Below, piece after piece: positions 26,910-39,703 of a stretch of 39,703 nucleotides of DNA. Within the stretch, counting starts at the first letter, position 1, and each line of letters begins with the position of its first letter. The position numbers were made by a program, and so were the translations under genes. The notes below the pieces were generated by a model. It saw only the letters and a program-made list of their open reading frames with translations, ran no database searches and was not told the origin of the DNA. This DNA is from Actinomycetales bacterium. Lineage in GTDB: Bacteria; Actinomycetota; Actinomycetes; Nanopelagicales; Nanopelagicaceae. The stretch is taken from positions 1 to 39,703 of the forward strand of contig JAGWYO010000014.1 in assembly GCA_018969355.1 (NCBI GenBank). Direction: 5' to 3'.

Positions 26910-27857
26910 TTATAGGGCTGGATTTAGCGTGATTTTGCCAGTTGTTTCGCGGGCCAACATTGATTGGTGAGCAGCAGTGGCCTGACTTAAGCCAAATGTT
27001 GCACCGATTACAGGTTTTAATTTTCCATCAATTACTAATGAAAATAGTTCAGTGATTACATCATTGAGAAGCTCTTTCTTTCCAAAACAGTGTGCCAACC
27101 AAAATCCCACAACCGTCTTTGAGCCATGCATTAACACACCTGGATTAATGGGTGTTGGTGCAGTACGAGATGCCATACCAAAAGTAACTAGGCGGCCAAA
27201 CGGTGCTAACACATCAAGGCTGACATCAAATGTTTTACCGCCAACCATCTCAAGAACTAAGTTAACCGGCTTTGCGCCATTGGCCTCAAGAATCGCATCT
27301 TTAAGTTTGTCTTGATTAGCATCAATAACAACATCTGCACCAAGGGATTTAGCTAAGGCGCGCTTGTCTTGACTTGAGGCTACTGCAATTACTTTAGCTC
27401 CCCACATCTTGGCCAATTGAATTGCTATAGTTCCAACGCCGCCAGCTGCTGCATGAATGACTACGCTCTCACCTTTTTGAAGGTGGCCAACAGTTTTTAA
27501 GATGTGCCAAGCCGTTGAACCTTGCACCAACATACATAGTGCCTGTTCGTCGCTAACTCCATTTGGAATCTCAATCATTGCAGCTGAGTGCGCAAGAGCT
27601 TTTTGCGCATACCCCCCGCCATCAACAGGTGCAAGCACACGGCGACCGTTGGCAATTCCAACAACTTCAATACCGGGAATGAGCGGAAGCTTTTGTGGTG
27701 AAAGATAAGAGTTTTCTGTTTGGTGCGTATCGGCATAGTTGATTCCGATTGACGTAACATCTATGACCTCTTGTCCAGGACCAGGGACTGGTTCGGCTAG
27801 ATCAACTAAGTGCATGGAGTCTGGACCGCCAAATGCGGTGATTTGTATTGCCCTCAT
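26910..27857 (-). CDS. Zinc-free quinone oxidoreductase-like MDR protein
   Basis: This is a medium-chain dehydrogenase/reductase of the quinone oxidoreductase type, expected to use NADPH and lack catalytic zinc. The 315-residue protein has GPGQEVIDVTSIGINYADTHQTENSY at the N-terminus, the VVIHAAAGGVGTIAIQLAKMWGAKVIAV cofactor loop around residues 130-155, and a C-terminal IGATFGLSQATAAHQSM motif. The structural and catalytic zinc cysteines of classic ADHs are absent. It starts 4 bases after the permease stop, so it is the last gene of the ABC operon; a substrate role in that pathway is inferred only. Confidence 0.85.
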   Translation of the reverse strand: MRAIQITAFGGPDSMHLVDLAEPVPGPGQEVIDVTSIGINYADTHQTENSYLSPQKLPLIPGIEVVGIANGRRVLAPVDGGGYAQKALAHSAAMIEIPNGVSDEQALCMLVQGSTAWHILKTVGHLQKGESVVIHAAAGGVGTIAIQLAKMWGAKVIAVASSQDKRALAKSLGADVVIDANQDKLKDAILEANGAKPVNLVLEMVGGKTFDVSLDVLAPFGRLVTFGMASRTAPTPINPGVLMHGSKTVVGFWLAHCFGKKELLNDVITELFSLVIDGKLKPVIGATFGLSQATAAHQSMLARETTGKITLNPAL

Positions 27858-27861
27858 TTTT

Positions 27862-28749
27862 TTATCCCTTAGTTGCGCCGAGAGTTAAGCCTGAAACAAA
27901 CTGCTTACGTAGTACAAGGAACAAGATGATCGTTGGCGCAGCAACAATGCTGGCACCTGCAGCAAGTAAATTGAAATCTGTGATGTATTGGCCTTGTAGC
28001 TGGCGCAGAGCAGAAGTCACTGGACGCTTGGAATCTTCAGACATCAAAATCAGCGCCCAGAAGAAGTCGTTATAAATCCAGCAACTCATTAACACGCCAA
28101 GGGCTGCTAGAGGTGGGCGAAGCAATGGCAACAAAACGTTCCAATAATGCCTAAAGACTGAACAGCCATCGAGAATTGCTGACTCTGAAATCTCCTTTGG
28201 AACAGTCTTCATATATGAAGAGAGAACGAAGGTAGCAAAACCAACTTGGAATGCAACATGGATAAGTATGATGCCAAAATAGTTGTTATAGAGCAACGAA
28301 CGGTTTCCGAAAAGATCACCAATTTTGATATATAGCCAGAAAACTGGAATATATGTTGCAATCGTTGGCAACATATTGCCAGCAGTAAAGAAAAGTAGAA
28401 GTGTGAGATTAAATCTAAATGAGTAGCGTGATACAACGAAAGCTATGAGTGAGCCTAAGAATAAGATCAAAATAACGCTAGGTACCATCACATACAGAGT
28501 ATTCAAGAAGTATTTCGTTAGGCCCATAACTCGAAAAGCTTGGAAATAGTTATCTAGGTTTAAATGACGTGGCCAAGAAAAAACACCATAGGAAATAATG
28601 TCGTTATAGGGACGAAGTGATGTCCAAAGTGTCCAAAGAATTGGAAAAATCCAAACAAAAGCAAAGAAACCAATAATGGCAGAGATGAAGTTGTCTTTGA
28701 CCTTTTGTTTATTCTTATACTCTTTATTTTGGACGATTGTCACACTCAC
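27862..28749 (-). CDS. Carbohydrate ABC transporter permease (MalG-type, CUT1)
   Basis: This is an inner-membrane permease with about six hydrophobic segments; 295 residues. The cytoplasmic EAA-like loop reads EISESAILDGCSVFRHYWNVLLPLLRPPLAAL, which contacts an ATPase. An RPYNDIISYGVF segment after the first helix is typical of MalG/UgpE-like partners. It overlaps the upstream permease by 4 bases (ATGA at 28746-28749). No transporter ATPase is encoded in the window, so it would use a shared MsmK-like one (inference). The substrate cannot be read from sequence. Confidence 0.9.
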   Translation of the reverse strand: MSVTIVQNKEYKNKQKVKDNFISAIIGFFAFVWIFPILWTLWTSLRPYNDIISYGVFSWPRHLNLDNYFQAFRVMGLTKYFLNTLYVMVPSVILILFLGSLIAFVVSRYSFRFNLTLLLFFTAGNMLPTIATYIPVFWLYIKIGDLFGNRSLLYNNYFGIILIHVAFQVGFATFVLSSYMKTVPKEISESAILDGCSVFRHYWNVLLPLLRPPLAALGVLMSCWIYNDFFWALILMSEDSKRPVTSALRQLQGQYITDFNLLAAGASIVAAPTIILFLVLRKQFVSGLTLGATKG

Positions 28750-29657
28750 TGCAGATCCTCCTTAAAGACATTGCGCAGATAAATAAGGATAGGAACAACG
28801 CAGAGCACAAGGGCTATAACTGAATAAGCCGCACCCTTCATTGAAATTCCCTGTCCCGCGAAGTTCTGGAATGCCAAAATATTGAGCAGAGGCCAGGCCG
28901 TTGAAGTGCCATAAATAATGTAGACAAGGTCAAAAGCACGCAAAGAATCGATAATTGTTATCACCAAAATAATGACATTGACTGGTCGCATGGTAGGAAA
29001 AATTATTTTCCTAAAGGTCTGCCACTCTGTAGCGCCATCGATTGCAGATGCTTCCCGAAGTGATGAATCAAAGGCCTTTAAGCCAGCTAAATAAAGCAAC
29101 ATGATGTAGCCGATATGGCGCCAAGAGGCCACAGCCATAATCACATAACTATTGATGCTGTAGTTACCCCAAATAGAAACAGCGTTTCCAATATCTCTAC
29201 CCATCACACCTTGCACAAAGCCACCCGGTTGAAGCATAAAGTTCCAAATAATTCCAATAATAGCTAAGGATAAAACTACAGGCATATAGAAAATAGTTTC
29301 ATAAATCTGGTGACCCTTAATTTTGCGATCAAATTGATAAGCCAACAGAATTCCAAGTGGTGTTGCAATGAATGTAAACCACAGTAACCAGACGACGTTG
29401 TTCTTTAGTGCATCATAGAAAACTGGTGAACCTAAAAAAATGTTTTTGTAGTTAGCTAGTCCAGCCCATTTAATATCACTAACATTCACGCCATTCCAGT
29501 AGGTAAAAGAAAGAACGACTGTAATGAGTGTAGGAAACCATAAGAAAATTATTTGCAATAAAGTTGGAATACCTACGAAAGCACTGAGCGTAAACCGATC
29601 ATTGCGGGAAAGGGAGCGGCGGCTGCGAACAATTTTGTTCACAGCCGCCGTTTTCAT
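28746..29657 (-). CDS. Carbohydrate ABC transporter permease (MalF-type, CUT1)
   Basis: This permease has 303 residues and about six membrane spans. The EAA-like loop is REASAIDGATEWQTFRKIIFPTMRPV, and YWNGVNVSDIKWAGLANYKNIFL is the periplasmic loop common in the family. The ATG at 29655-29657 has AGGG about 7 bases upstream. Codons 3-13 form an unusually strong hairpin (see separate entry), which may limit its translation relative to the binding protein. It pairs with the downstream MalG-type permease. Confidence 0.9.
   Translation of the reverse strand: MKTAAVNKIVRSRRSLSRNDRFTLSAFVGIPTLLQIIFLWFPTLITVVLSFTYWNGVNVSDIKWAGLANYKNIFLGSPVFYDALKNNVVWLLWFTFIATPLGILLAYQFDRKIKGHQIYETIFYMPVVLSLAIIGIIWNFMLQPGGFVQGVMGRDIGNAVSIWGNYSINSYVIMAVASWRHIGYIMLLYLAGLKAFDSSLREASAIDGATEWQTFRKIIFPTMRPVNVIILVITIIDSLRAFDLVYIIYGTSTAWPLLNILAFQNFAGQGISMKGAAYSVIALVLCVVPILIYLRNVFKEDLQ
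29617..29650 (-). promoter_or_regulatory. Strong hairpin just after the start codon of the MalF-type permease
   Basis: Arms CGGCGGCTG (29617-29625) and CAGCCGCCG (29642-29650) pair over 9 bp; after one mismatch GAAC / GTTC adds 4 bp around an AATTTT loop. It spans codons 3 to 13, starting 4 bases inside the gene, and lies 43 bases after the binding-protein stop. It resembles intercistronic hairpins that keep binding-protein mRNA abundant and permease expression low. No T-tract, so not a terminator. Confidence 0.6.
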
Positions 29658-29693
29658 TTCTTAACCCTAGTCTAATCCGTTAGTTTTAACGAA

Positions 29694-30998
29694 TTAAAGT
29701 GCAGGCAATGCATCCCATTGTGCTTGAGTGCTTTCAAGAATCTTTGTGAGATCTTTTGGATTCTTCAGGAAACTCTGAATCGCTGGACCAACAACTGGAC
29801 CAGCAAAATCACCGCGAGTATCGCGGTCTAGGAAGAAGCCGATGTTCTTAGCTGCGCCAAGTACAGCAAGCTTTTGCTTGTTGAATGCGTCGTAGCCAGA
29901 AGTATCGAAATCACTTGAGATGTAAATGCTTGTATCTCCAGCAGCAACAGCTGCATCAATACCTTCCTTAGATCCCCAGAACTGTGCAAGGTCTTTTCCA
30001 CCCTCGACGTTCTTGCCATTTGCGGCAACTGAAATACCGTCAAGTGGTGCATCGATAGAGTCAACACCATGCTCTGGGTTGATTTCTGGGAATGGAACAA
30101 TCCATAGATCGTCATAGTCTTCTTGTGACTTGGCTTTAAAGTCATTAGCAAACCATGAACCCATCATCATCGCTCCGCACTTCTTCTGTAGTAGAAGATC
30201 GCGCATTCCATCCCATGAAATATCAAGAACGTTCTTGTTCATGTAAGGAATCAACTGACCCATGTGTGTAAATACATCTACAACCTTGGCATCAGTCCAC
30301 TTCTCTTTACCATTGAGCAAGTCATAGTGGAACTGGTATCCATTAAGACGCATATTGAGAATATCGAAGGTTCCCATTGCTTCCCAGCCGCCCTTGTCGC
30401 CAAGTGCGTAACCAACTAGACCCTTCTTTTTTGTTGCTTCACAAAGTTTGATGAGGTCATCCCATGTTGCGATGTTTTCTGGGTTAAGTCCTAGCTCAGT
30501 CATTGTTGACTTTCGGTAGTGAAGTCCCCATGGGTAGTACGTAGTAGGAATGATGTACTGCTTACCATCTGCAGGATTTGTTGCACCTTGGATTGCAGCA
30601 GCTGAAAGTGAACTTCCTAGCGCCTTTACCTGATCTGAAACATCTGCTAGTAGCCCAGAATCAGCACGTGCATTGGTGCGCCAACCGGCCATCCAGCCAA
30701 ATGCATCATCAGGTGTTCCCTGCATGATTTGTACGAAGTTATTTTGGAAGTCATCTGAGTTAACAGCTTGTGAAATAACTTTATTGCCAGTCTTCTTTGT
30801 GTAAGCATCGTTGACTGCGATATTAATCTTTGCACCAGCATCACTGAGATTTCCACGAATTGTGTAGTGAACATCTCCGGTGACTTTCTTCTTTCCGCAA
30901 CCTGCAAGAAGAGATCCACCAGCAACAAGTCCAGCACCACCGATTGCAGCACCTTTAAGTACTGAACGACGGGAAATGCCATTGTTTACTTCTGACAT
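29694..30998 (-). CDS. Extracellular solute-binding protein (CUT1 sugar type), Tat lipoprotein
   Basis: This is a family 1-like substrate-binding protein for the adjacent permeases, anchored outside the cell. The ATG at 30996-30998 has AAAGGA 7 bases upstream and gives 434 residues; the frame extends 20 codons further but without support. A twin-arginine signal (ISRRSVLKG at residues 8-16) and a lipobox LLAGC with Cys34 predict Tat export and lipid anchoring. The mature part shows the typical pattern PTTYYPWGLHYRKSTMTELGLNPENIATWDDLIKLCEATKKKGLVG. Ligand unknown; sulfoquinovose or its glycosides are one speculative option, given the sulfonate genes upstream. Confidence 0.88.
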   Translation of the reverse strand: MSEVNNGISRRSVLKGAAIGGAGLVAGGSLLAGCGKKKVTGDVHYTIRGNLSDAGAKINIAVNDAYTKKTGNKVISQAVNSDDFQNNFVQIMQGTPDDAFGWMAGWRTNARADSGLLADVSDQVKALGSSLSAAAIQGATNPADGKQYIIPTTYYPWGLHYRKSTMTELGLNPENIATWDDLIKLCEATKKKGLVGYALGDKGGWEAMGTFDILNMRLNGYQFHYDLLNGKEKWTDAKVVDVFTHMGQLIPYMNKNVLDISWDGMRDLLLQKKCGAMMMGSWFANDFKAKSQEDYDDLWIVPFPEINPEHGVDSIDAPLDGISVAANGKNVEGGKDLAQFWGSKEGIDAAVAAGDTSIYISSDFDTSGYDAFNKQKLAVLGAAKNIGFFLDRDTRGDFAGPVVGPAIQSFLKNPKDLTKILESTQAQWDALPAL

Positions 30999-31130
30999 TG
31001 TTTTCCTTTTCTCTAGAGTCGAGCCTTTCGAAAGGTCATCAGGAATTGAAGGGGCCAAAGCCTGGTAACAGCCTCAACCTAGGGCGGATTGCTACTCAGA
31101 GGTAGGGAAATTGGATAACGAATCGGTTAC

Positions 31131-31343: not shown

Positions 31344-32987
31344 CTAGTTGGTAACAAGTAATGAGGCTGCTGCTGGTGAATTGATCCATGTCAAATATCC
31401 ACCATCAAGATTTACGGGATTAAATCCGAGTTCTTTGAGAAGCATGGCAGCTGTGTGACCACGTTGGCCCACTTGGCAGTTCACCAATAGTTTCTTATTA
31501 GTGATTTCAGATTGGCGTTCACGGATTTCATCAACTGGAATGTTGATAGCACCAGGAATCATTCCTTTGCCACATTCGCTAACGCTACGAACATCTATGA
31601 GGGTGTAACCCTTATCCATGTATTCATGGATTTCATCCCACTGCGCAACTTGAGTTAGACCAGAAACGATATTCTCGGCAACATAGCCCAACATGTTTAC
31701 TGGATCTTTTGCTGAGCTAAATGGCGGTGCATAGGCAAGCTCTAAATCTGCAAGTTCTGGAGCCGTAATACCACCACGTATTGCAGTTGCAATAACATCA
31801 ATTCGTTTATCTACACCTTCAACTCCAACTCCCTGGGCGCCTAAGATCTCTCCGGTAGTTGGCTCAAATATAAGTTTCAAACTCATTTGTTTTGCATCAG
31901 GATAATAACCAGCATGTGAATTTGGATGAGTATGAATTGATTGATAGGTACGGCCAGCAGCTTTAAGTCGCTTTTCATTCCAACCGGTTGTGGCAATCAT
32001 CAAATCAAAGACCTTGACTATTGCTGTACCAATTGTCTGTACAGGGCGAATTGATCGTCCAGCAATATGGTCTGCAACTACGCGACCATGGCGATTTGCT
32101 AAATTGGCTAATGGGACAAGTGTTGCACTGCCATCTAAAGCATCAATCTTTTCAGCGGCATCACCAACGGCATAGATATCTGGATTACTTGTGCGATTGA
32201 AATCATCAACTGAAATTCCATTTCTAGTGCCAATGGTGAGGCCAGCTGCCTTAGCTAAGGAAATCTCTGGGCGCACACCAATCGCCAAAATAACGATCTC
32301 GGCCGACACAGTGTCACCGTTAGAGAGCTCGACACTGTTTGCGCCAATGTTTAAAACACTTGCTCCAAGGTAGAGATTAACACCATGTTTAATCATCTCT
32401 GCAGATACTAAAGATGCAAGCTCTGAATCTAGAGGCATCAGTACTTGATCAGTTGCTTCAACCAAAGATGTTTGAATTCCTTTGTGAATCAGGTTTTCAG
32501 CGATTTCAACACCAATGAATCCGCCACCAATAACAACAGCACTCTTTGGGTTTGCACTCACACGGGCAGCAATCTTTTCAACATCCTCAACTGTTCGAAG
32601 CGTCAATGCTCTTTCAATTCCCGATAGCGGTGGAACAACTGGAGAGGCACCAGGGCTCAGTATTAACTTGTCGTAATCAATTTCATGAGTTTCGTGACTA
32701 TCTAGATTCTTAATGGTGACTGTCTTCTTATTTGGATCAATACTAAGAACTTCTGTGTTCACACGAACATCTAGGCGGAAACGTGCATGCAGTGATTCAG
32801 GGGTCTGCAACAACAACGAACTTTCCTGCTCAATTACTCCACCCACGTAATATGGCAAGCCACAGTTGGCATAGGAAACATGCCCACTTTTTTCAAGAAC
32901 GATGATCTCGGCATCTGCATCTAAGCGGCGCAAACGAGTTGCTGCAGACATACCGCCAGCAACCCCGCCAATTATGACTATGCGCAT
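31344..32987 (-). CDS. CoA-disulfide reductase / rhodanese fusion (CoADR-Rhd)
   Basis: This flavoprotein of the pyridine nucleotide-disulfide oxidoreductase family reduces CoA disulfide or CoA persulfide with NAD(P)H. The 547 residues include GGVAGGMSAATRLRRLD (FAD, residues 7-23), the active-site Cys42 in YANCGLPYY, VVIGGGFIGVEIAENL for NAD(P)H, and AVGDAAE. A C-terminal rhodanese domain (about 450-545) has its own Cys504 in VNCQVGQRGH. Homologues act in persulfide handling with CstR-regulated genes. The start overlaps the rhodanese stop (TGATG). Persulfide reductase activity is inferred from the fused rhodanese. Confidence 0.9.
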   Translation of the reverse strand: MRIVIIGGVAGGMSAATRLRRLDADAEIIVLEKSGHVSYANCGLPYYVGGVIEQESSLLLQTPESLHARFRLDVRVNTEVLSIDPNKKTVTIKNLDSHETHEIDYDKLILSPGASPVVPPLSGIERALTLRTVEDVEKIAARVSANPKSAVVIGGGFIGVEIAENLIHKGIQTSLVEATDQVLMPLDSELASLVSAEMIKHGVNLYLGASVLNIGANSVELSNGDTVSAEIVILAIGVRPEISLAKAAGLTIGTRNGISVDDFNRTSNPDIYAVGDAAEKIDALDGSATLVPLANLANRHGRVVADHIAGRSIRPVQTIGTAIVKVFDLMIATTGWNEKRLKAAGRTYQSIHTHPNSHAGYYPDAKQMSLKLIFEPTTGEILGAQGVGVEGVDKRIDVIATAIRGGITAPELADLELAYAPPFSSAKDPVNMLGYVAENIVSGLTQVAQWDEIHEYMDKGYTLIDVRSVSECGKGMIPGAINIPVDEIRERQSEITNKKLLVNCQVGQRGHTAAMLLKELGFNPVNLDGGYLTWINSPAAASLLVTN

Positions 32988-33376
32988 CAGTTTGTCACCA
33001 ATGCCATCCCGTTAGCTAGCCAGTCATTAACTCCGCTACTTAAGTTAAATAACTTAGTGAAGCCAAAATGATGCATAGTCTCAACCGCAACCCCTGATCT
33101 GCGGCCACTTCGGCAATAAACGGCATATGTAGCTGACTTATCGAGTTTGGTGATTTCACTTTCAAAATGCGACGTTTCCACATCAATATTTATGGCACCT
33201 TGAATATGCCCTGACATGTATTCACCAGGCGTTCTAACATCAAGTACAACTACATGAGGTTCGGCTATTTTCTTGGCGAAGGCCATTGTGTCCAGATTTT
33301 TTGCCGATGAGGTCGTGCTGCACCCGGCAAGAAGTAAAAGAGAGGCAAGAAATGCGAATATTTTTTTCATCATCAT
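32987..33376 (-). CDS. Rhodanese-domain lipoprotein
   Basis: The 129-residue protein has a lipoprotein signal (KKIFAFLASLLLLAGC, Cys19) and a single rhodanese domain with catalytic Cys88 in YCRSGRRSG and the conserved DVRTPGEYMSGHIQGAINIDVE. It should sit outside the membrane and transfer sulfane sulfur. The start ATG overlaps the cstR-like stop as ATGA; a run of three ATG codons makes the exact start ambiguous by up to two codons. A surface rhodanese together with a cytosolic CoA-persulfide reductase suggests handling of thiosulfate or polysulfide arriving from outside (inference). Confidence 0.9.
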   Translation of the reverse strand: MMMKKIFAFLASLLLLAGCSTTSSAKNLDTMAFAKKIAEPHVVVLDVRTPGEYMSGHIQGAINIDVETSHFESEITKLDKSATYAVYCRSGRRSGVAVETMHHFGFTKLFNLSSGVNDWLANGMALVTN

Positions 33377-33806: not shown

Positions 33807-33837
33807 TAAAGTAGCATACCCTAGGGGGTATAGTCAA
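33807..33837 (-). promoter_or_regulatory. Promoter with CsoR/CstR-type operator
   Basis: On the minus strand TTGACT (33832-33837) is a good -35; TACTTT or CTACTT 17-18 bases on is a fair -10. Between them is the dyad ATACCC-N4-GGGTAT (33816-33831), which fits the G-tract inverted repeats bound by CsoR and CstR. A repressor on this site would block RNA polymerase. The -35 overlaps the stop codon of the upstream exporter gene. Confidence 0.7.
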
Positions 33838-34823
33838 ATTCCCATAATCCGCACAGCAACCAACGCCACCCCAGCAACAATCACCCAAGCGAGTAAACCC
33901 ATAACCATTGGGCGTGCACCAATCGCTCGAATTGCCTTCCACCGAACGCCAGATCCCAATGCAACTAATCCAGCACCAAGTAAGAGCTTGCTAGTGAGCA
34001 CGACATCATCGTGAATTCGTGCAGGAATATCAAAAACATTTTGGATGATGGCAACTGCCATGAAACCTAAAACAAAAAATGGAATGAGCGGAACTTTGGC
34101 AGAGTTTTCAGCCCTCTGACCTTGGGCCTGTAGATACTTGCGATGGCGAAGAGAAAGAATCAAAACAATGGGTGCTAGCAGACACACACGTGAGAGTTTT
34201 ATAACAACTGCAGATTTAACTGCATCATCACTCCAGACAGATGCCGTTGCTATAACTTGACCAACATCGTGGACTGCAGCTCCAGCCCAGGCACCAAATG
34301 TTTGATCACTTAGCCCCATTAAGTGGCCCAGAAATGGCAAGACAAAAATAGAGAGCGTTCCACACAAAGAGATCAGCCCAATTGCATAAGAAGTTTCTTC
34401 TTCGGTTGCGCGAGTTTGCGGACGAATTGCCGCAACTGCAGTTGCGCCACAAACACCGAAACCGACTCCAATAAGCAGACCTAGTTCTCCACTCATCTTA
34501 AATAGTTTTGAAAGGCCTAAGATTCCAAAGATTGTGAAACTAACTACCAAAATTACTGTGATCACACCTTTCACGCCAATGGCTTTGAGTGAAATAACAC
34601 TTACTTGGGCCCCCAGCAATGCAACTCCAATGCGCATTAACTTCTTGCTCGAAAATGAAGTTCCGGCTGCGGCAACTGCAGGCCAGGATGCAAAGTTTGC
34701 AATCAAGAATCCAAAGGCAACACAAAGCGCAAGCGGGCTGATTGCTGGTTGAAAATTGTGAATTTGAAATGCCACAGCAACAACGGCTGCAATTAAACCA
34801 AGTCCCGGAAGCGTTTTCGTCAT
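33834..34823 (-). CDS. suyZ: YeiH/UPF0324 family putative sulfate/sulfite exporter (SuyZ-like)
   Basis: The 329-residue membrane protein has about nine to ten hydrophobic segments and the family motifs GVALLGAQVSVISLKAIG, GFGVCGATAVAAIRPQTRATEEETSYAI and GAWAGAAVHDVGQVIATASVWSDDA, as in YeiH/COG2855 proteins. Members linked to sulfonate degradation are named SuyZ or TauZ and are thought to export sulfite or sulfate. It begins immediately after the comC-like stop (TAAATG) and ends the sulfolactate operon, so export of the sulfite released by SuyAB is the likely job (inference). Confidence 0.8.
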   Translation of the reverse strand: MTKTLPGLGLIAAVVAVAFQIHNFQPAISPLALCVAFGFLIANFASWPAVAAAGTSFSSKKLMRIGVALLGAQVSVISLKAIGVKGVITVILVVSFTIFGILGLSKLFKMSGELGLLIGVGFGVCGATAVAAIRPQTRATEEETSYAIGLISLCGTLSIFVLPFLGHLMGLSDQTFGAWAGAAVHDVGQVIATASVWSDDAVKSAVVIKLSRVCLLAPIVLILSLRHRKYLQAQGQRAENSAKVPLIPFFVLGFMAVAIIQNVFDIPARIHDDVVLTSKLLLGAGLVALGSGVRWKAIRAIGARPMVMGLLAWVIVAGVALVAVRIMGI

Positions 34824-35831
34824 TTAGATTCCGAGCTTCGTGGACCAAGTATTCAACTGCTCTGCCACTTGATCAGTGATTGTTATTTCATCCCCATTAT
34901 TGAGTTTTTCTGGATTTATACGATTAGAACCTGGAAGGCGGCCCCCAGAGCTATTTACTTCCTGGGCAAACTCCTTAGCTCTATCGTTGCTTCCATCAAC
35001 AGATAGCTTTGAGGCATCGATTGCAATGACAAAATGTGAAATCTCTTGAGGCAAAGCATCTTGGGTAGCTGCAAACATGTCAGGAATGTTTTTAGCCAAG
35101 GTTGGTCCAATTAACATTCCAGTCAGAGACTCAACTAGAACAGCAATTGCATACCCTTTTACACCGCCTAATGGTGCAAGCATTCCAGCTAAGGCTTCCT
35201 TTGCATTTGTGGTTGGCACACCATCTTTTGTGAAAGCCCAACCAGGTTCAAGTTCTGCACCTGCTTGAGCTTTTGCTTGAATCTTTCCACGGGCAACTGC
35301 ACTCGTTGCTAGATCAATAACAGTCGGTGGATTTGTTGGGATACCTGCTGCAATGGGAGAAGTTGATAGCAATGGTTGATTGCCACCCCATGGTGGCATA
35401 ACAGCTGGACCAGTACTAAATGCAATACCAACTAATCCACGATCAATCATAGGCCAGACATAGATACCTAATGCACCGCAGTGATTAGAACGTCCAACGC
35501 CAACGGCAGCTATTCCATTAACCATTGCGCGCTCAGATGCAATTTCAGAGGCTTTGTGTAACTGCCAATGGCCCAACCCATCATCACCATCAAAAACAAC
35601 CAAACTTGGCAAATCTGTAACAACCTTTAACTCCGCATTTGGATTAATTCCACCTGCTTGCAAACGAGAGAGGTAAAATGGAAGGCGCATTAATCCATGA
35701 CTTCCAATTCCCCATCGATCACTTGCAACAATACAGCGAGCAGTTGTTGCCGCTTCTTGTGTGGGAACACCTGCTGCTTTCAATAGCGAGGTTGCTGTAG
35801 CAATTGCAGATCCGACATTTAGCGTAGGCAT
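34824..35831 (-). CDS. comC: Ldh2/malate-lactate dehydrogenase family, ComC-like (R)-sulfolactate dehydrogenase
   Basis: The 335-residue NAD(P)-dependent 2-hydroxyacid dehydrogenase has GSHGLMRLPFYLSRL (His45 of the family), VGVGRSNHCGALGIYVWPM and AAGIPTNPPTVIDLATSAVARGKIQ. The type includes malate, ureidoglycolate and sulfolactate dehydrogenases, so sequence alone does not fix the substrate. Coupling with an SlcC-type enzyme and SuyAB is the arrangement used to invert sulfolactate stereochemistry: one enzyme oxidises (S)-sulfolactate, the other reduces sulfopyruvate to the (R) form. Its ATG overlaps the preceding stop as TAATG. Confidence 0.72.
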   Translation of the reverse strand: MPTLNVGSAIATATSLLKAAGVPTQEAATTARCIVASDRWGIGSHGLMRLPFYLSRLQAGGINPNAELKVVTDLPSLVVFDGDDGLGHWQLHKASEIASERAMVNGIAAVGVGRSNHCGALGIYVWPMIDRGLVGIAFSTGPAVMPPWGGNQPLLSTSPIAAGIPTNPPTVIDLATSAVARGKIQAKAQAGAELEPGWAFTKDGVPTTNAKEALAGMLAPLGGVKGYAIAVLVESLTGMLIGPTLAKNIPDMFAATQDALPQEISHFVIAIDASKLSVDGSNDRAKEFAQEVNSSGGRLPGSNRINPEKLNNGDEITITDQVAEQLNTWSTKLGI

Positions 35832-36769
35832 TAGTTGCTACTTTCCTTTAACGCACCAACGGCATGAGTGGCTGGTTTGGAACTAAGAACCAACTCGATA
35901 TTTGATGCAAGAATTTCATTAATTCGCAGTTGGCTTTGGCTCGTGATTCCAGCAACGTGGGGCGTAAGGATGAGGTTAGGGATACCTTCCATTTCACCTC
36001 TACTTGGTGGCTCTTGGGCTCGAACATCAAGTGCTGCCCCAGCAATAGTTTTGGCTTTTAAGGCAGAAATCAGATCTGCTTCATTAATAACTTCTCCGCG
36101 GCCAACGTTTACCAAAATTGCGTCGGGCTTCATTAACGCAAGTGTTGCTGCATTAATTACACCGTTGGTTTCTGGAGTCGATGGCATATGAATACTTACT
36201 ACATCACTGCGCCCTAAAACATCTTCAAAAGTTGTCAGTTCTATTCCTGACAAATTCATTGCATATGGGTCAAACCCAATAACGTTGCAGTTAAAACCTT
36301 GTATTAGCTTGGCCGTTGCAACTCCCGTGGCACCGCATCCCAGCAATCCCCATGTCAGATGTGAGAGTTCACGGCCAGGGGTTCGCACCCATCCACCATC
36401 ACGCGTTGCACCATCATGACCAGGAATATTGCGAAGTAAGGCTAAGGCTAAACCAAGAGTTAGCTCACCAACGCTAATCGCATTTGCACCTAACCCTGCA
36501 ACAACAACAACGCCGGCAGCATCGGCTGCTTTGATATCAATATTGTCTAGTCCAACTCCAGCGCGTGCAATAACTCGAAGTTTAGGGGCCGAAGCAATGA
36601 CATCGGCTGTGACTTTGGTGCGATTTCTTACAACAAGAGCCATTACATCTTTAAGAGAAGCCTTGAGTTTTTCAGCATCACTCCACAAATCATCATTTCG
36701 GATAATGGGAAAACTCCCTTCCAGTTTGTGGAAAGGAGTTCCCCATACATCTTCAGAGATGAGAATCAT
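35831..36769 (-). CDS. slcC: D-isomer 2-hydroxyacid dehydrogenase, SlcC-like (S)-sulfolactate dehydrogenase
   Basis: This 312-residue NAD-dependent dehydrogenase has a GLLGCGATGVATAKLI nucleotide motif and the catalytic triad Arg224 (NVGRGEVI), Glu253 (RAQEPP) and His271 (TPHVAG), so it should be active. The family also includes phosphoglycerate and glyoxylate dehydrogenases. Placement between suyB and a ComC-like gene points to (S)-sulfolactate oxidation to sulfopyruvate, as described for slcC in sulfolactate degraders. It overlaps both neighbours as TAATG. Confidence 0.75.
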   Translation of the reverse strand: MILISEDVWGTPFHKLEGSFPIIRNDDLWSDAEKLKASLKDVMALVVRNRTKVTADVIASAPKLRVIARAGVGLDNIDIKAADAAGVVVVAGLGANAISVGELTLGLALALLRNIPGHDGATRDGGWVRTPGRELSHLTWGLLGCGATGVATAKLIQGFNCNVIGFDPYAMNLSGIELTTFEDVLGRSDVVSIHMPSTPETNGVINAATLALMKPDAILVNVGRGEVINEADLISALKAKTIAGAALDVRAQEPPSRGEMEGIPNLILTPHVAGITSQSQLRINEILASNIELVLSSKPATHAVGALKESSN

Positions 36770-37935
36770 TATGCAGAGATATACAACTTCGTAAAAGTGA
36801 ACTCACGGTGACCCATAACTTCAGCCTTACAGAGGCGACCATTAACAGTGTCATAAATGACATCCATCATCATGTCGCCAGCTTTTGTCAGATCGTATTC
36901 ATAACGAAGTAATCCAGAAACATCTAGATCGATGTGCTCAGTCATTGACTTTGCAGTCTTGATGTTTGCAGTCAGCTTCAAAACCGGAACAATCGGATTG
37001 CCGATTACGTTTCCTTGTCCCGTTGGGAACAAGTGAATAACTGCCCCGCCAGCCGCCATCAGGGTTACGCACTCTGCTGCAGCTGATGATGAATCCATAA
37101 AGTACAAGCCAGGCTTTGATGCACTTGGCATTTCTGCAGGCTTGAGAACACCCACAACTGGTACAGAGCCAGTCTTGGCAATATTTCCAAGTGCCTTCTC
37201 TTCAATAGTTGTTAAGCCACCAGCAATATTTCCTTGAGTTGGCTGTGAACCAAGTAGGTTTGCACCAGTTGCTTCAATAACCTTGATGTAGTTGTCATAT
37301 GTCAACTGGAACAAGTCACGGGTAGCAGCATCAATGCAACGCTCTGCAATGAGGTGTTCTCCACCAGTTAGCTCTGATGTTTCACCAAAGAAAACAGTTC
37401 CGCCTGCATCAACCCAGCGATCAACAGCTTGAGATGTCGTTGGGCAAGAACCTAGACCAGATGTTGTATCAGACTCTCCGCACTTAATTGACATAATCAT
37501 GTCGCCCATTTCAGCTTCTGTGCGAACAAGACCAGATGCATCTTGTAAGAACATCGCTGCAACACGGCTAGCTTCTTGAATTACTTGTAGATCGCCCTTG
37601 CCTTCAATTGAAAAAGCTGCAACTGGCTTACCAGTTTTTGCAATTCCATCAGCAACTCTTTGAGTCCACTTTGGTTCGATTCCAATGACAACTACTGCTG
37701 CAACGTTTGCGTTAACACCAGTACCGATAAGTGTGTCAAAAGTAAGTTGTAGATCTTCACCAAACTGCAAGCGCCCGAAAGCGTGAGGCAGAGCTAGTGT
37801 GCCAGGAATAACTTTTGCAACGGCTTCTGCTGCTGCATTAGAAAGGTCATCAAGAGGCAAAATAATGACGTGATTGCGGATACCCATTGCGCCGTTTTCG
37901 CGGCGGTATCCCATTAAGCGCGGCTTGCTTCCCAT
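36769..37935 (-). CDS. suyB: (R)-sulfolactate sulfo-lyase subunit beta (UxaA family)
   Basis: This large subunit of the UxaA/altronate dehydratase family is inferred to cleave (R)-sulfolactate to pyruvate and sulfite with SuyA. The 388-residue product begins MGSKPRLMGYRRENGAMGIRNHVIILPLDDLSNA. It has CGESDTTSGLGSCPTTSQAVDRW near residue 155, a Cys-rich family motif, and MAAGGAVIHLFPTGQGNVIGNPIVPVLKLTAN toward the C-terminus. The ATG at 37933-37935 has GAGGAG 6 bases upstream and overlaps suyA by 22 bases; an ATG 7 codons on would make a TAATG junction but is less supported. Altronate dehydratase is the alternative, but the split SAF subunit and dehydrogenase pair favour SuyB. Confidence 0.78.
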   Translation of the reverse strand: MGSKPRLMGYRRENGAMGIRNHVIILPLDDLSNAAAEAVAKVIPGTLALPHAFGRLQFGEDLQLTFDTLIGTGVNANVAAVVVIGIEPKWTQRVADGIAKTGKPVAAFSIEGKGDLQVIQEASRVAAMFLQDASGLVRTEAEMGDMIMSIKCGESDTTSGLGSCPTTSQAVDRWVDAGGTVFFGETSELTGGEHLIAERCIDAATRDLFQLTYDNYIKVIEATGANLLGSQPTQGNIAGGLTTIEEKALGNIAKTGSVPVVGVLKPAEMPSASKPGLYFMDSSSAAAECVTLMAAGGAVIHLFPTGQGNVIGNPIVPVLKLTANIKTAKSMTEHIDLDVSGLLRYEYDLTKAGDMMMDVIYDTVNGRLCKAEVMGHREFTFTKLYISA

Positions 37936-38216
37936 CGATAACTCCTCATATTGTGTGTGTGAATGTAATCGCCCTTTTTAATGGCAGCTGATGCAAGTCC
38001 GACCTTGATGCCGTACTTAATAATTGAGTCGCCCTCAGCAAGATCTGTGAGCGCAAATTTGTGTCCGAGAGGAATCGCGTGGTTTAAAACAGCGGTGCTC
38101 TCCGTTCCTTCTTTTACCGAACGCCCTTGCAGGGTTCCAGGTTGCAGATCTGTCATCGCAACAGCAACGTTGTCGCCATCATGATGGAGCAGGAACTGCG
38201 GTGGTGTTATCGCCAT
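37914..38216 (-). CDS. suyA: (R)-sulfolactate sulfo-lyase subunit alpha (SAF domain)
   Basis: The 100-residue small subunit is a SAF/UxaA-type domain: MAITPPQFLLHHDGDNVAVAMTDLQPGT, NHAIPLGHKFALTDLAEGDSIIKYGIKVGLASAAIKKGDYIHTHNMRS. The HKFAL and GDxIxKYG elements are those of the N-terminal part of altronate/sulfolactate lyases, here as a separate gene as in suyAB systems. It is the first gene of a five-gene operon. The promoter region is shared with the divergent oxidoreductase and has a GntR-like box about 35 bases upstream. Confidence 0.78.
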   Translation of the reverse strand: MAITPPQFLLHHDGDNVAVAMTDLQPGTLQGRSVKEGTESTAVLNHAIPLGHKFALTDLAEGDSIIKYGIKVGLASAAIKKGDYIHTHNMRSYRWEASRA

Positions 38217-38250
38217 ATCTACACACGCCTCTCATCGCTTTATTTGGGTA

Positions 38251-38262
38251 GTGGTCTGACCT
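38251..38262. promoter_or_regulatory. GntR/FadR-like operator box 1 (GTGGTCTGACCT)
   Basis: GTGGTCTGACCT contains the TGGTNNNACC half-dyad of FadR-subfamily GntR operators. It lies 35 bases upstream of suyA. A near-identical second copy is 73 bases away. No GntR gene occurs in this window. Confidence 0.5.
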
Positions 38263-38323
38263 CTTGTGGGAGTCTAGGACAGTTGAGCGTGTTCCGTCTA
38301 GCCCCCTGCCTAAATTTCTTGAA

Positions 38324-38335
38324 GTGGTCTAACCT
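38324..38335. promoter_or_regulatory. GntR/FadR-like operator box 2 (GTGGTCTAACCT)
   Basis: GTGGTCTAACCT matches box 1 in 11 of 12 positions and ends 6 bases before the oxidoreductase ATG. It includes a TAACCT -10-like element with spacing that fits a leaderless start at 38342, so a bound repressor would directly cover the promoter. Confidence 0.5.
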
Positions 38336-38341
38336 GTTGCC

Positions 38342-39445
38342 ATGAAAAGCGAGCTTCGGTACGGAATTATCGGCGCAGGCAGCATGGGCCGAGAGCATAT
38401 TGAGAACATCAAAGTCATGGGTGGGGCTCTTGTGAGTGCAATCAGCGATCCCTATAAGCCTTCTTTAGAGGCCGCCCTTGCTATGGCCCCGAGTGCCAAA
38501 GTCTTTAGCGATCACCGAGCTCTCCTAGATTCTGGTCTCATCGATGCAGTTATCGTCGCAACACCCAATGACACACACGCTGAAGTTCTCAAAGACTGCC
38601 TGGCCACAGATGTTGCAGTCTTTGTTGAAAAGCCGCTTGCAACAACTGTAGAAGATTTGAAATCAATTCTTAGTTGGGATGAGAAACGAAGTGCAATGAC
38701 ATGGATGGGTCTTGAATACCGTTTCATGCCACCAGTTGCTGAAGCAATTGCCCGTGCAAAAGAAGGTGAAGCGGGAAAAATTCATCAAGTATCTATCCGT
38801 GAACACCGCGAACCGTTCTATCCAAAAGTGGATAACTGGAATCGTTTTGCTGAGCGCACTGGAGGAACTTTGGTTGAAAAATGTTGTCACTATTTCAATT
38901 TGATGGACATTGTTGTCGGCGAACAACCTGTTCGAGTTTTTGCTTCCGGTGGTCAGAGCGTTAACCATCTGGATGAAAAGTACGATGGCAAGCAAGCGGA
39001 TATGTTAGATAACGCCTACGTAGTTCTTGAGTATGCAAATGGTGCTCGTGGGATGTTAGATCTTTGCATGTTTGGTGAAGGCTCCTTCGATAAAGAGATT
39101 CTGACAATCGTAGGAGATGAAGGAAAGATTGAATCCTTTTTACCTTCACAGGTCGTCCGTGCTTCACGCAGGGAGTCAATTGGAAAACTTTCAGGATGGT
39201 CACGCGGTGCAAGCCGTGCTCGTGGAAATGAACAAAAGATTGTTCATAACTACGATGTGAAATACATGGGTCACCACTATGGTGCCTCTTATATTGAACA
39301 TACTAGATTCCGTGATGCGATATTGAATTCAACTCCTGCGGAAGTAACGCTCAAAGATGGTGTAACTAGCGTGGTTACAGGCCTTGCAGCCCATAAGAGT
39401 ATTAATGAAAGCCGAGTAGTTGAAATTAAAGAGTTGTGGGGCTAA
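38342..39445 (+). CDS. Gfo/Idh/MocA-family oxidoreductase
   Basis: The 367-residue NAD(P)-dependent protein has an N-terminal Rossmann domain (RYGIIGAGSMGREHIENI, residues 5-22), IDAVIVATPNDTHAEVLKDCLA, and the family EKP motif FVEKPLATTVEDL. The C-terminal alpha/beta domain includes GGTLVEKCCHYFNLMDIVVGEQPVRVFASGG with the catalytic-type His. Families here include inositol and glucose dehydrogenases, NAD-dependent glycosidases (GH109/GH188, the latter including sulfoquinovosidases) and others; substrate is unknown. It diverges from suyA and has no Shine-Dalgarno, and its stop abuts the convergent aldolase stop. Confidence 0.85.
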   Translation: MKSELRYGIIGAGSMGREHIENIKVMGGALVSAISDPYKPSLEAALAMAPSAKVFSDHRALLDSGLIDAVIVATPNDTHAEVLKDCLATDVAVFVEKPLATTVEDLKSILSWDEKRSAMTWMGLEYRFMPPVAEAIARAKEGEAGKIHQVSIREHREPFYPKVDNWNRFAERTGGTLVEKCCHYFNLMDIVVGEQPVRVFASGGQSVNHLDEKYDGKQADMLDNAYVVLEYANGARGMLDLCMFGEGSFDKEILTIVGDEGKIESFLPSQVVRASRRESIGKLSGWSRGASRARGNEQKIVHNYDVKYMGHHYGASYIEHTRFRDAILNSTPAEVTLKDGVTSVVTGLAAHKSINESRVVEIKELWG

Positions 39446-39703
39446 TTACCAGCTAGTCCATGGCTTTGCATGAGTATCAACAATCTCAGCCAACTGCTCT
39501 AGTCGCGGAATTGAAACTTCACGCAATGCAGCGGGAATATTGGCAGCGCCAACAATGTCTGCCCACACAGCACGGCCCGCAAGAAATCCACTAGCTCCAC
39601 CCATTGCACATGCTTTCACTGCGTCATTAAAGAAGGGCTGCTTAACTCCATTTGAAAGTACTACCCAGGGTGAACCAATAGCTTCAGAGATTCTTTCAGC
39701 GTT
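39446..39703 (-). CDS. YihT/LacD-like class I aldolase (partial, C-terminal 85 aa)
   Basis: Only the C-terminus is in the window. It reads NAERISEAIGSPWVVLSNGV ... GGASGFLAGRAVWADIVGAA ... EIVDTHAKPWTSW. The GASGFLAGRAVW block and the final PWT resemble 6-deoxy-6-sulfofructose-1-phosphate aldolase (YihT) and tagatose-bisphosphate aldolase (LacD). If YihT-like, it would release dihydroxyacetone phosphate and sulfolactaldehyde, feeding sulfolactate to the operon upstream. The catalytic Lys lies outside the window, so activity cannot be checked. The identity is from memory of motifs and is moderately sure. Confidence 0.6.
   Translation of the reverse strand, partial: NAERISEAIGSPWVVLSNGVKQPFFNDAVKACAMGGASGFLAGRAVWADIVGAANIPAALREVSIPRLEQLAEIVDTHAKPWTSW

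Follow-up and report, generated by a model that had tools for sequence, protein, structure and literature searches.

The locus described here raises the question of whether a truncated aldolase gene and a Gfo/Idh/MocA oxidoreductase gene at the end of a contig supply the sulfolactate operon beside them, such that sulfoquinovose (SQ) would be broken down and desulfonated within one organism. The window, by which we mean the whole stretch of 39,703 nucleotides that was analyzed, is the entire contig C17 of G000, a Planktophila (acI actinobacteria) MAG of 1.40 Mb in 83 contigs. We infer that the window belongs to Planktophila because its close named relatives, among them Ca. Planktophila lacus MMS-21-148, IMCC26103, and IMCC19121, are acI actinobacteria. 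The edge genes are, in our judgment, very probably part of one regulon for complete SQ catabolism in Ca. Planktophila.

The DNA of the contig ends at position 39703, inside the aldolase gene. Another contig of the same bin, C70, overlaps the window end with DNA identities of 91% (938 bp) and 87% (261 bp) and then extends past it, and it contains an extra nucleoside hydrolase gene between the oxidoreductase (GH188) and aldolase genes, which the window does not have. Because of these overlap identities and the extra gene, C70 is best read as a contig of a sister strain. It was also noted that the bin, with a stated contamination of 3.62%, holds on C70 a diverged second copy of the window end, so that at least 2 strains appear to be mixed in the MAG. 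The features of the window that are discussed below are as follows.

33834 to 34823, minus strand: YeiH/PF03601 membrane protein, probable sulfite exporter; it closes the suy block in relatives
34824 to 35831, minus strand: predicted ComC-like sulfolactate dehydrogenase (Ldh_2, PF02615)
35831 to 36769, minus strand: predicted SlcC-like (S)-sulfolactate dehydrogenase (2-hydroxyacid dehydrogenase, PF02826), conserved in position
36769 to 37935, minus strand: predicted SuyB, large subunit of (R)-sulfolactate sulfo-lyase (PF20629, PF04295)
37914 to 38216, minus strand: predicted SuyA, small subunit of (R)-sulfolactate sulfo-lyase (SAF domain), adjoining SuyB in relatives
38250 to 38264, no strand: operator AGTGGTCTGACCTCT, found by pattern match, proposed site of the GntR/FCD regulator of the cluster
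38323 to 38337, no strand: second operator AGTGGTCTAACCTGT, found by pattern match in the suyA-GH188 intergenic region
38342 to 39445, plus strand: predicted GH188-type NAD+-dependent sulfoquinovosidase (SqgA-like, Y160 variant), from phmmer matches to SqgA structures and from residues
39446 to 39703, minus strand: predicted YihT-type sulfofructose-1-phosphate aldolase, C-terminal 85 amino acids, cut by the contig end, 94% identical to the full-length orthologue on C70

The oxidoreductase gene is divergent from suyA and encodes a complete protein of 367 amino acids with the domains PF01408 and PF02894. The earlier note had placed it in a fold that includes NAD-dependent sulfoquinovosidases, and this was borne out by the structure matches and the residues. 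A phmmer search against the PDB returned 8qc2 (E-value 3.9e-103), 8qc3 (3.3e-102), and 8zn9 (3.7e-87), with all remaining matches at 5e-31 or weaker, and the alignment to the characterized SqgA 8qc2, which PMC11465081 names as the GH188 crystal structure, spans the full length. The SQ-binding residues reported for ArSqgA (PMC10755693), K107, Y136, R166, K172, E189, H193, and H321, are all kept, as K97, Y126, R156, K162, E179, H183, and H312. These comprise the active-site Lys, Tyr, Glu, and 2 His (K97, Y126, E179, H183, and H312) and the sulfonate contacts R166 and K172 (R156 and K162); the published Glu163 aligns one residue away from E154 of the window and was left out of this count. At the position of L170 in ArSqgA, which makes a backbone contact, the window protein has Y160, the same residue and number as in the "Y160" group that PMC11465081 describes for IMCC26103. 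The product is thus predicted to be a GH188-type NAD+-dependent sulfoquinovosidase. A GH31 domain search of 6 genomes gave no match, so GH188 would take the sulfoquinovosidase role.

For the aldolase, the exact string GASGFLAGRAVW was found in the window fragment and in both YihT structures, whereas the tagatose-type enzyme has GVLCGRATW at the same place, in agreement with the YihT-type end claimed for the fragment. The full-length protein on C70 scored 265 bits with 48% identity to YihT (7ag1), versus 76 bits and 32% to the tagatose aldolase 5hjl, and it missed the NCBIfam lacD equivalog cut-off (71 bits vs. 432). By these pairwise scores and identities, through which both edge proteins were placed, the aldolase is predicted to side with YihT and away from the tagatose enzymes, and the oxidoreductase with SqgA/GH188. 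An ordinary sugar catabolism consisting of an inositol-type dehydrogenase and a tagatose aldolase, with no involvement of sulfonates, would fit the names that NCBIfam gives to the edge genes, inositol 2-dehydrogenase and tagatose aldolase, but all of these scores are far under the cut-offs, SqgA and YihT are the nearest solved relatives, and the edge genes are conserved together with SuyAB. We therefore give this reading hardly any credence.

The sulfolactate module itself is predicted from a split SuyA/SuyB that is accompanied by both SlcC-like and ComC-like dehydrogenases. SuyB shares 73% identity with a protein from a Rhodococcus SuyAB/SlcC/ComC-like cluster and 60% with a split UxaA-family protein adjoining hpsN/hpsO in Cupriavidus pinatubonensis, the species in which a review places the identified SuyAB (PMC12890257). 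The best NCBIfam match of the ComC-like gene was L-sulfolactate dehydrogenase, at 200 bits and thus below the cut-off of 500. In the order given in PMC12421959, SlcC, ComC, and SuyAB lead from (S)-sulfolactaldehyde (SLA) through (S)-sulfolactate, sulfopyruvate, and (R)-sulfolactate to pyruvate and sulfite, which explains why 2 sulfolactate dehydrogenases stand alongside SuyAB. The suy block is also adjoined by a CoA-disulfide-reductase/rhodanese fusion and a rhodanese lipoprotein (31344 to 33376), which are possible sulfur-handling genes, and by a second sugar-type ABC transporter with a binding protein and 2 permeases (26910 to 31058). The latter (27862 to 31058) was rejected as part of the cluster core, as it adjoins the cluster in only some relatives.

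Past the aldolase, C70 encodes a PfkB kinase, a GntR/FCD regulator, 2 ABC permeases, a binding protein, and a protein of 466 amino acids; the bin offers no kinase, isomerase, or importer for the window's own strain except on this sister-strain contig. The best PDB match of the kinase was the sulfofructose (SF) kinase 7ag6 (5.4e-25, vs. 4.9e-18 for ribokinase). The sole NCBIfam match of the 466-amino-acid protein was SftI (NF048012; 4.4e-79), at 266 bits below the equivalog cut-off of 700, and phmmer against PDB sequences gave only chance matches to HLA. A model built from an alignment of 16 sequences (mean pLDDT 80) and then compared structurally had the fold of L-arabinose/L-fucose isomerases (Z 27.0, rmsd 3.3 over 298 residues), and we refer to the protein as an SftI-like isomerase only. 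By homology, then, an SQ isomerase, an SF kinase, and a sulfofructose-1-phosphate aldolase are encoded together in the acI clusters. The specificities of these 3 enzymes are taken from homology, and the aldolase family also includes tagatose enzymes, which would allow the same pathway to serve mainly another sulfosugar, such as sulfofucose. However, the cluster is headed by GH188, a type characterized on SQ glycosides (PMC10755693), with the sulfonate contacts kept, and the lactonase- and dehydratase-type genes of the Entner-Doudoroff-like sulfofucose pathway were not seen in it, so that a main substrate other than SQ seems very improbable.

The whole cluster is contiguous in G015, the complete genome of a relative in a single contig of 1.36 Mb. 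The order there is an M24-like gene, isomerase, binding protein, permeases, GntR, kinase, and aldolase; a nucleoside hydrolase and GH188 come next, on the opposite strand, and after them suyA, suyB, slcC, comC, and PF03601. The core order is the same in IMCC19121, including the nucleoside hydrolase, and in G013, IMCC26103, SCGC AAA044-N04, and P. lacus MMS-21-148, which lack it. The PF01156 nucleoside hydrolase (locus L006, 929 to 1798) lies between GH188 and the aldolase in C70, G015, G004, G029, and IMCC19121; since the window and several relatives lack it, it was rejected as cluster core and is optional cargo. A divergent M24/creatinase-like protein under the Pfam cut-offs (L006, 9049 to 10134; L081, 8805 to 9698) adjoins the cluster in both the Y160 and Y158 groups.

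GH188 was found in 34 of the 135 Planktophila genomes covered, about a quarter (17 of the 44 good ones), and the cluster is therefore patchy across the genus. In LanE43, GH188 and the aldolase are separated by an inserted sugar-acid/KDPG-type module (L062, 11101 to 15632). A loss of the aldolase in this genome was considered and rejected, since the gene is present at a distance of about 12 kb, past the inserted module, and the aldolase and the isomerase-side operator are located 12 to 20 kb further on. Outside the genus, the Y158 cluster of Clavibacter sp. BS5 (L081) contains GH188, isomerase, kinase, and SuyAB, and a search across that genome for a YihT-type aldolase found none. In a Limnohabitans MAG (L100), GH188 and SuyAB-SlcC-ComC-PF03601 adjoin an ILVD/EDD dehydratase, an SDR, and an ABC transporter; this freshwater betaproteobacterium seems to carry a tandem cluster of the sulfo-ED/SuyAB kind.

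The 2 halves of the acI cluster share an operator. The near-palindrome AGTGGTNNNACCWST has 2 matches in the window, versus 0.01 expected, and the perfect sites are positioned twice between suyA and GH188 and once directly before the isomerase gene. All 17 of the isomerase upstream regions examined contained a site of this type. Exactly 3 perfect matches were present genome-wide in G000, G061, G066, G067, and G143, all of them within the SQ cluster, and in G015 the same 3 cluster sites lead among the matches listed; with one mismatch allowed, matches were no commoner than those of a reversed-pattern control. Because each of the 5 fully listed genomes has 3 perfect copies, all in the cluster, the distribution suggests that the cluster is one regulon. 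The GntR/FCD protein of the cluster probably binds the operators before both halves. In Clavibacter-type clusters AGTGGTCTGACCACT precedes GH188, and in Rhodococcus a GntR protein 45% identical to that of the acI cluster adjoins TGGTAAGACCA upstream of suyAB.

The earlier note proposed complete SQ use with desulfonation in one organism and suggested that the missing enzymes be sought in the 10 kb beyond position 39703. The contiguous genes and the shared operator favor the proposal, and SF-kinase-like and SQ-isomerase-like genes were indeed found there in relatives, whereas a sulfolactaldehyde dehydrogenase or other PF00171 gene was present in the cluster of none of the acI genomes examined. 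For this reason the SLA dehydrogenase step is only inferred, and oxidation would be carried out by an enzyme encoded outside the cluster. Searches for this enzyme by phyletic profile and by operator gave no specific candidate; the 2 aldehyde dehydrogenase families profiled belong to the genus core (108 and 100 of the 135 genomes) and are not tied to the cluster. The best acI match (37%) of the aldehyde dehydrogenase in the Rhodococcus suy cluster was the SSADH-like core family on contig C35 of G000 and at 48 kb in G015, which is a candidate only.

The absence of a linking SLA dehydrogenase from the cluster would also be expected if 2 adjoining modules did not operate in series, one converting SQ to an excreted C3 sulfonate and the other, SuyAB/SlcC/ComC, using imported sulfolactate; Arthrobacter sulfo-EMP strains do excrete sulfolactate (PMC10755693). 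Such an arrangement is nevertheless unlikely given the operators common to both halves and the adjacency kept across intact acI clusters with one case of insertion; furthermore, no SLA reductase gene was noticed in the cluster.

Under the preferred reading of one regulon in series, reconstructed from the directly observed gene content, synteny, residues, and operator distribution, each reaction and the pairing of regulator and site are deduced as follows. The ABC importer would take up SQ or sulfoquinovosyl glycerol, and GH188 would free SQ, using its bound NAD+ to oxidize C3 transiently. The SftI-like isomerase would convert SQ to sulfofructose, the YihV-like kinase would phosphorylate this to sulfofructose-1-phosphate, and the YihT-type aldolase would yield DHAP, which enters glycolysis, and (S)-sulfolactaldehyde. 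After oxidation to (S)-sulfolactate by an aldehyde dehydrogenase from outside the cluster, SlcC and ComC would lead through sulfopyruvate to (R)-sulfolactate, from which SuyAB would produce pyruvate and sulfite for export by the PF03601 protein, with the GntR/FCD regulator acting on the operators before both halves. Domain searches of 6 genomes for sulfite reductase (PF01077, NIR_SIR) and sulfite oxidase (PF00174, Oxidored_molyb) found neither, and assimilatory sulfate reduction is reportedly missing from acI strains (PMC5301498), for which reasons the sulfite is probably exported rather than used.

More broadly, and only as a tentative view that we place somewhat short of probable, a sizeable share of acI may mineralize SQ fully via one sulfo-EMP/SuyAB regulon and discard all of the sulfur as sulfite, without any sulfate or sulfite reduction of their own and with sulfolactaldehyde oxidized by a housekeeping or still unrecognized enzyme. 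The acI bacteria are among the commonest in lakes. Should the pathway be active, single cells of abundant lake bacteria would obtain carbon from a major sulfosugar of plants and algae and set sulfite free, handing no half-degraded product to another species, and the acI SQ degraders could go undetected in surveys that look for YihS-type isomerases or GH31 sulfoquinovosidases. The combination of sulfosugar breakdown and C3-sulfonate mineralization in one bacterium was called unusual in 2025 (PMC12421959).

Among the closest known systems is a GH188 cluster of the "Y160" type, published in 2024 (PMC11465081), from Actinobacteria bacterium IMCC26103, a strain of the same acI-A group (tribe acI-A4, PMC5301498). 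That publication gives its gene list, which matches the gene set found here, with GH188, SFP aldolase, SF kinase, a regulator, an ABC transporter, a fucose-isomerase-like protein, sulfolactate sulfo-lyase subunits, and a 3-phosphoglycerate-dehydrogenase-like protein, and raises the possibility of a new sulfoglycolytic pathway. An SLA dehydrogenase is on the list as well, but we found no aldehyde dehydrogenase in the homologous stretch (L073); this label may refer to the ComC-like gene. The operator common to both halves and the fate of sulfite are not described in the available text of that paper.

The tandem sulfofucolytic-SlcC/ComC-SuyAB pathway of Paracoccus wurundjeri, described in 2025 with proteomic and metabolomic support for the proposed order from S-SLA to R-SL, likewise combines conversion of a sulfosugar to sulfolactaldehyde, racemization by SlcC/ComC, and cleavage by SuyAB in one organism, and there too no gene was assigned as SLA dehydrogenase (PMC12421959). 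Its front half, however, is an Entner-Doudoroff route on sulfofucose, whereas that of acI is an aldolase (EMP) route with kinase and isomerase, for SQ. The sulfo-EMP pathways of E. coli and Arthrobacter share the YihV/YihT-like kinase and aldolase (PMC12890257, PMC10755693), and Arthrobacter further resembles acI in its use of GH188 and its production of sulfolactate (PMC10755693), but the acI isomerase is SftI/fucose-isomerase-like and not YihS, and the acI sulfolactate is expected to pass onward to SuyAB instead of being excreted, as it is in Arthrobacter. The gene content of the cluster in a congener (PMC11465081) and the tandem logic for sulfofucose (PMC12421959) are thus already published, and what is new here is the sulfo-EMP/SuyAB reading, the synteny in complete genomes, the operator common to both halves, the lack of an SLA dehydrogenase in the cluster, the prevalence, and the fate of sulfite.
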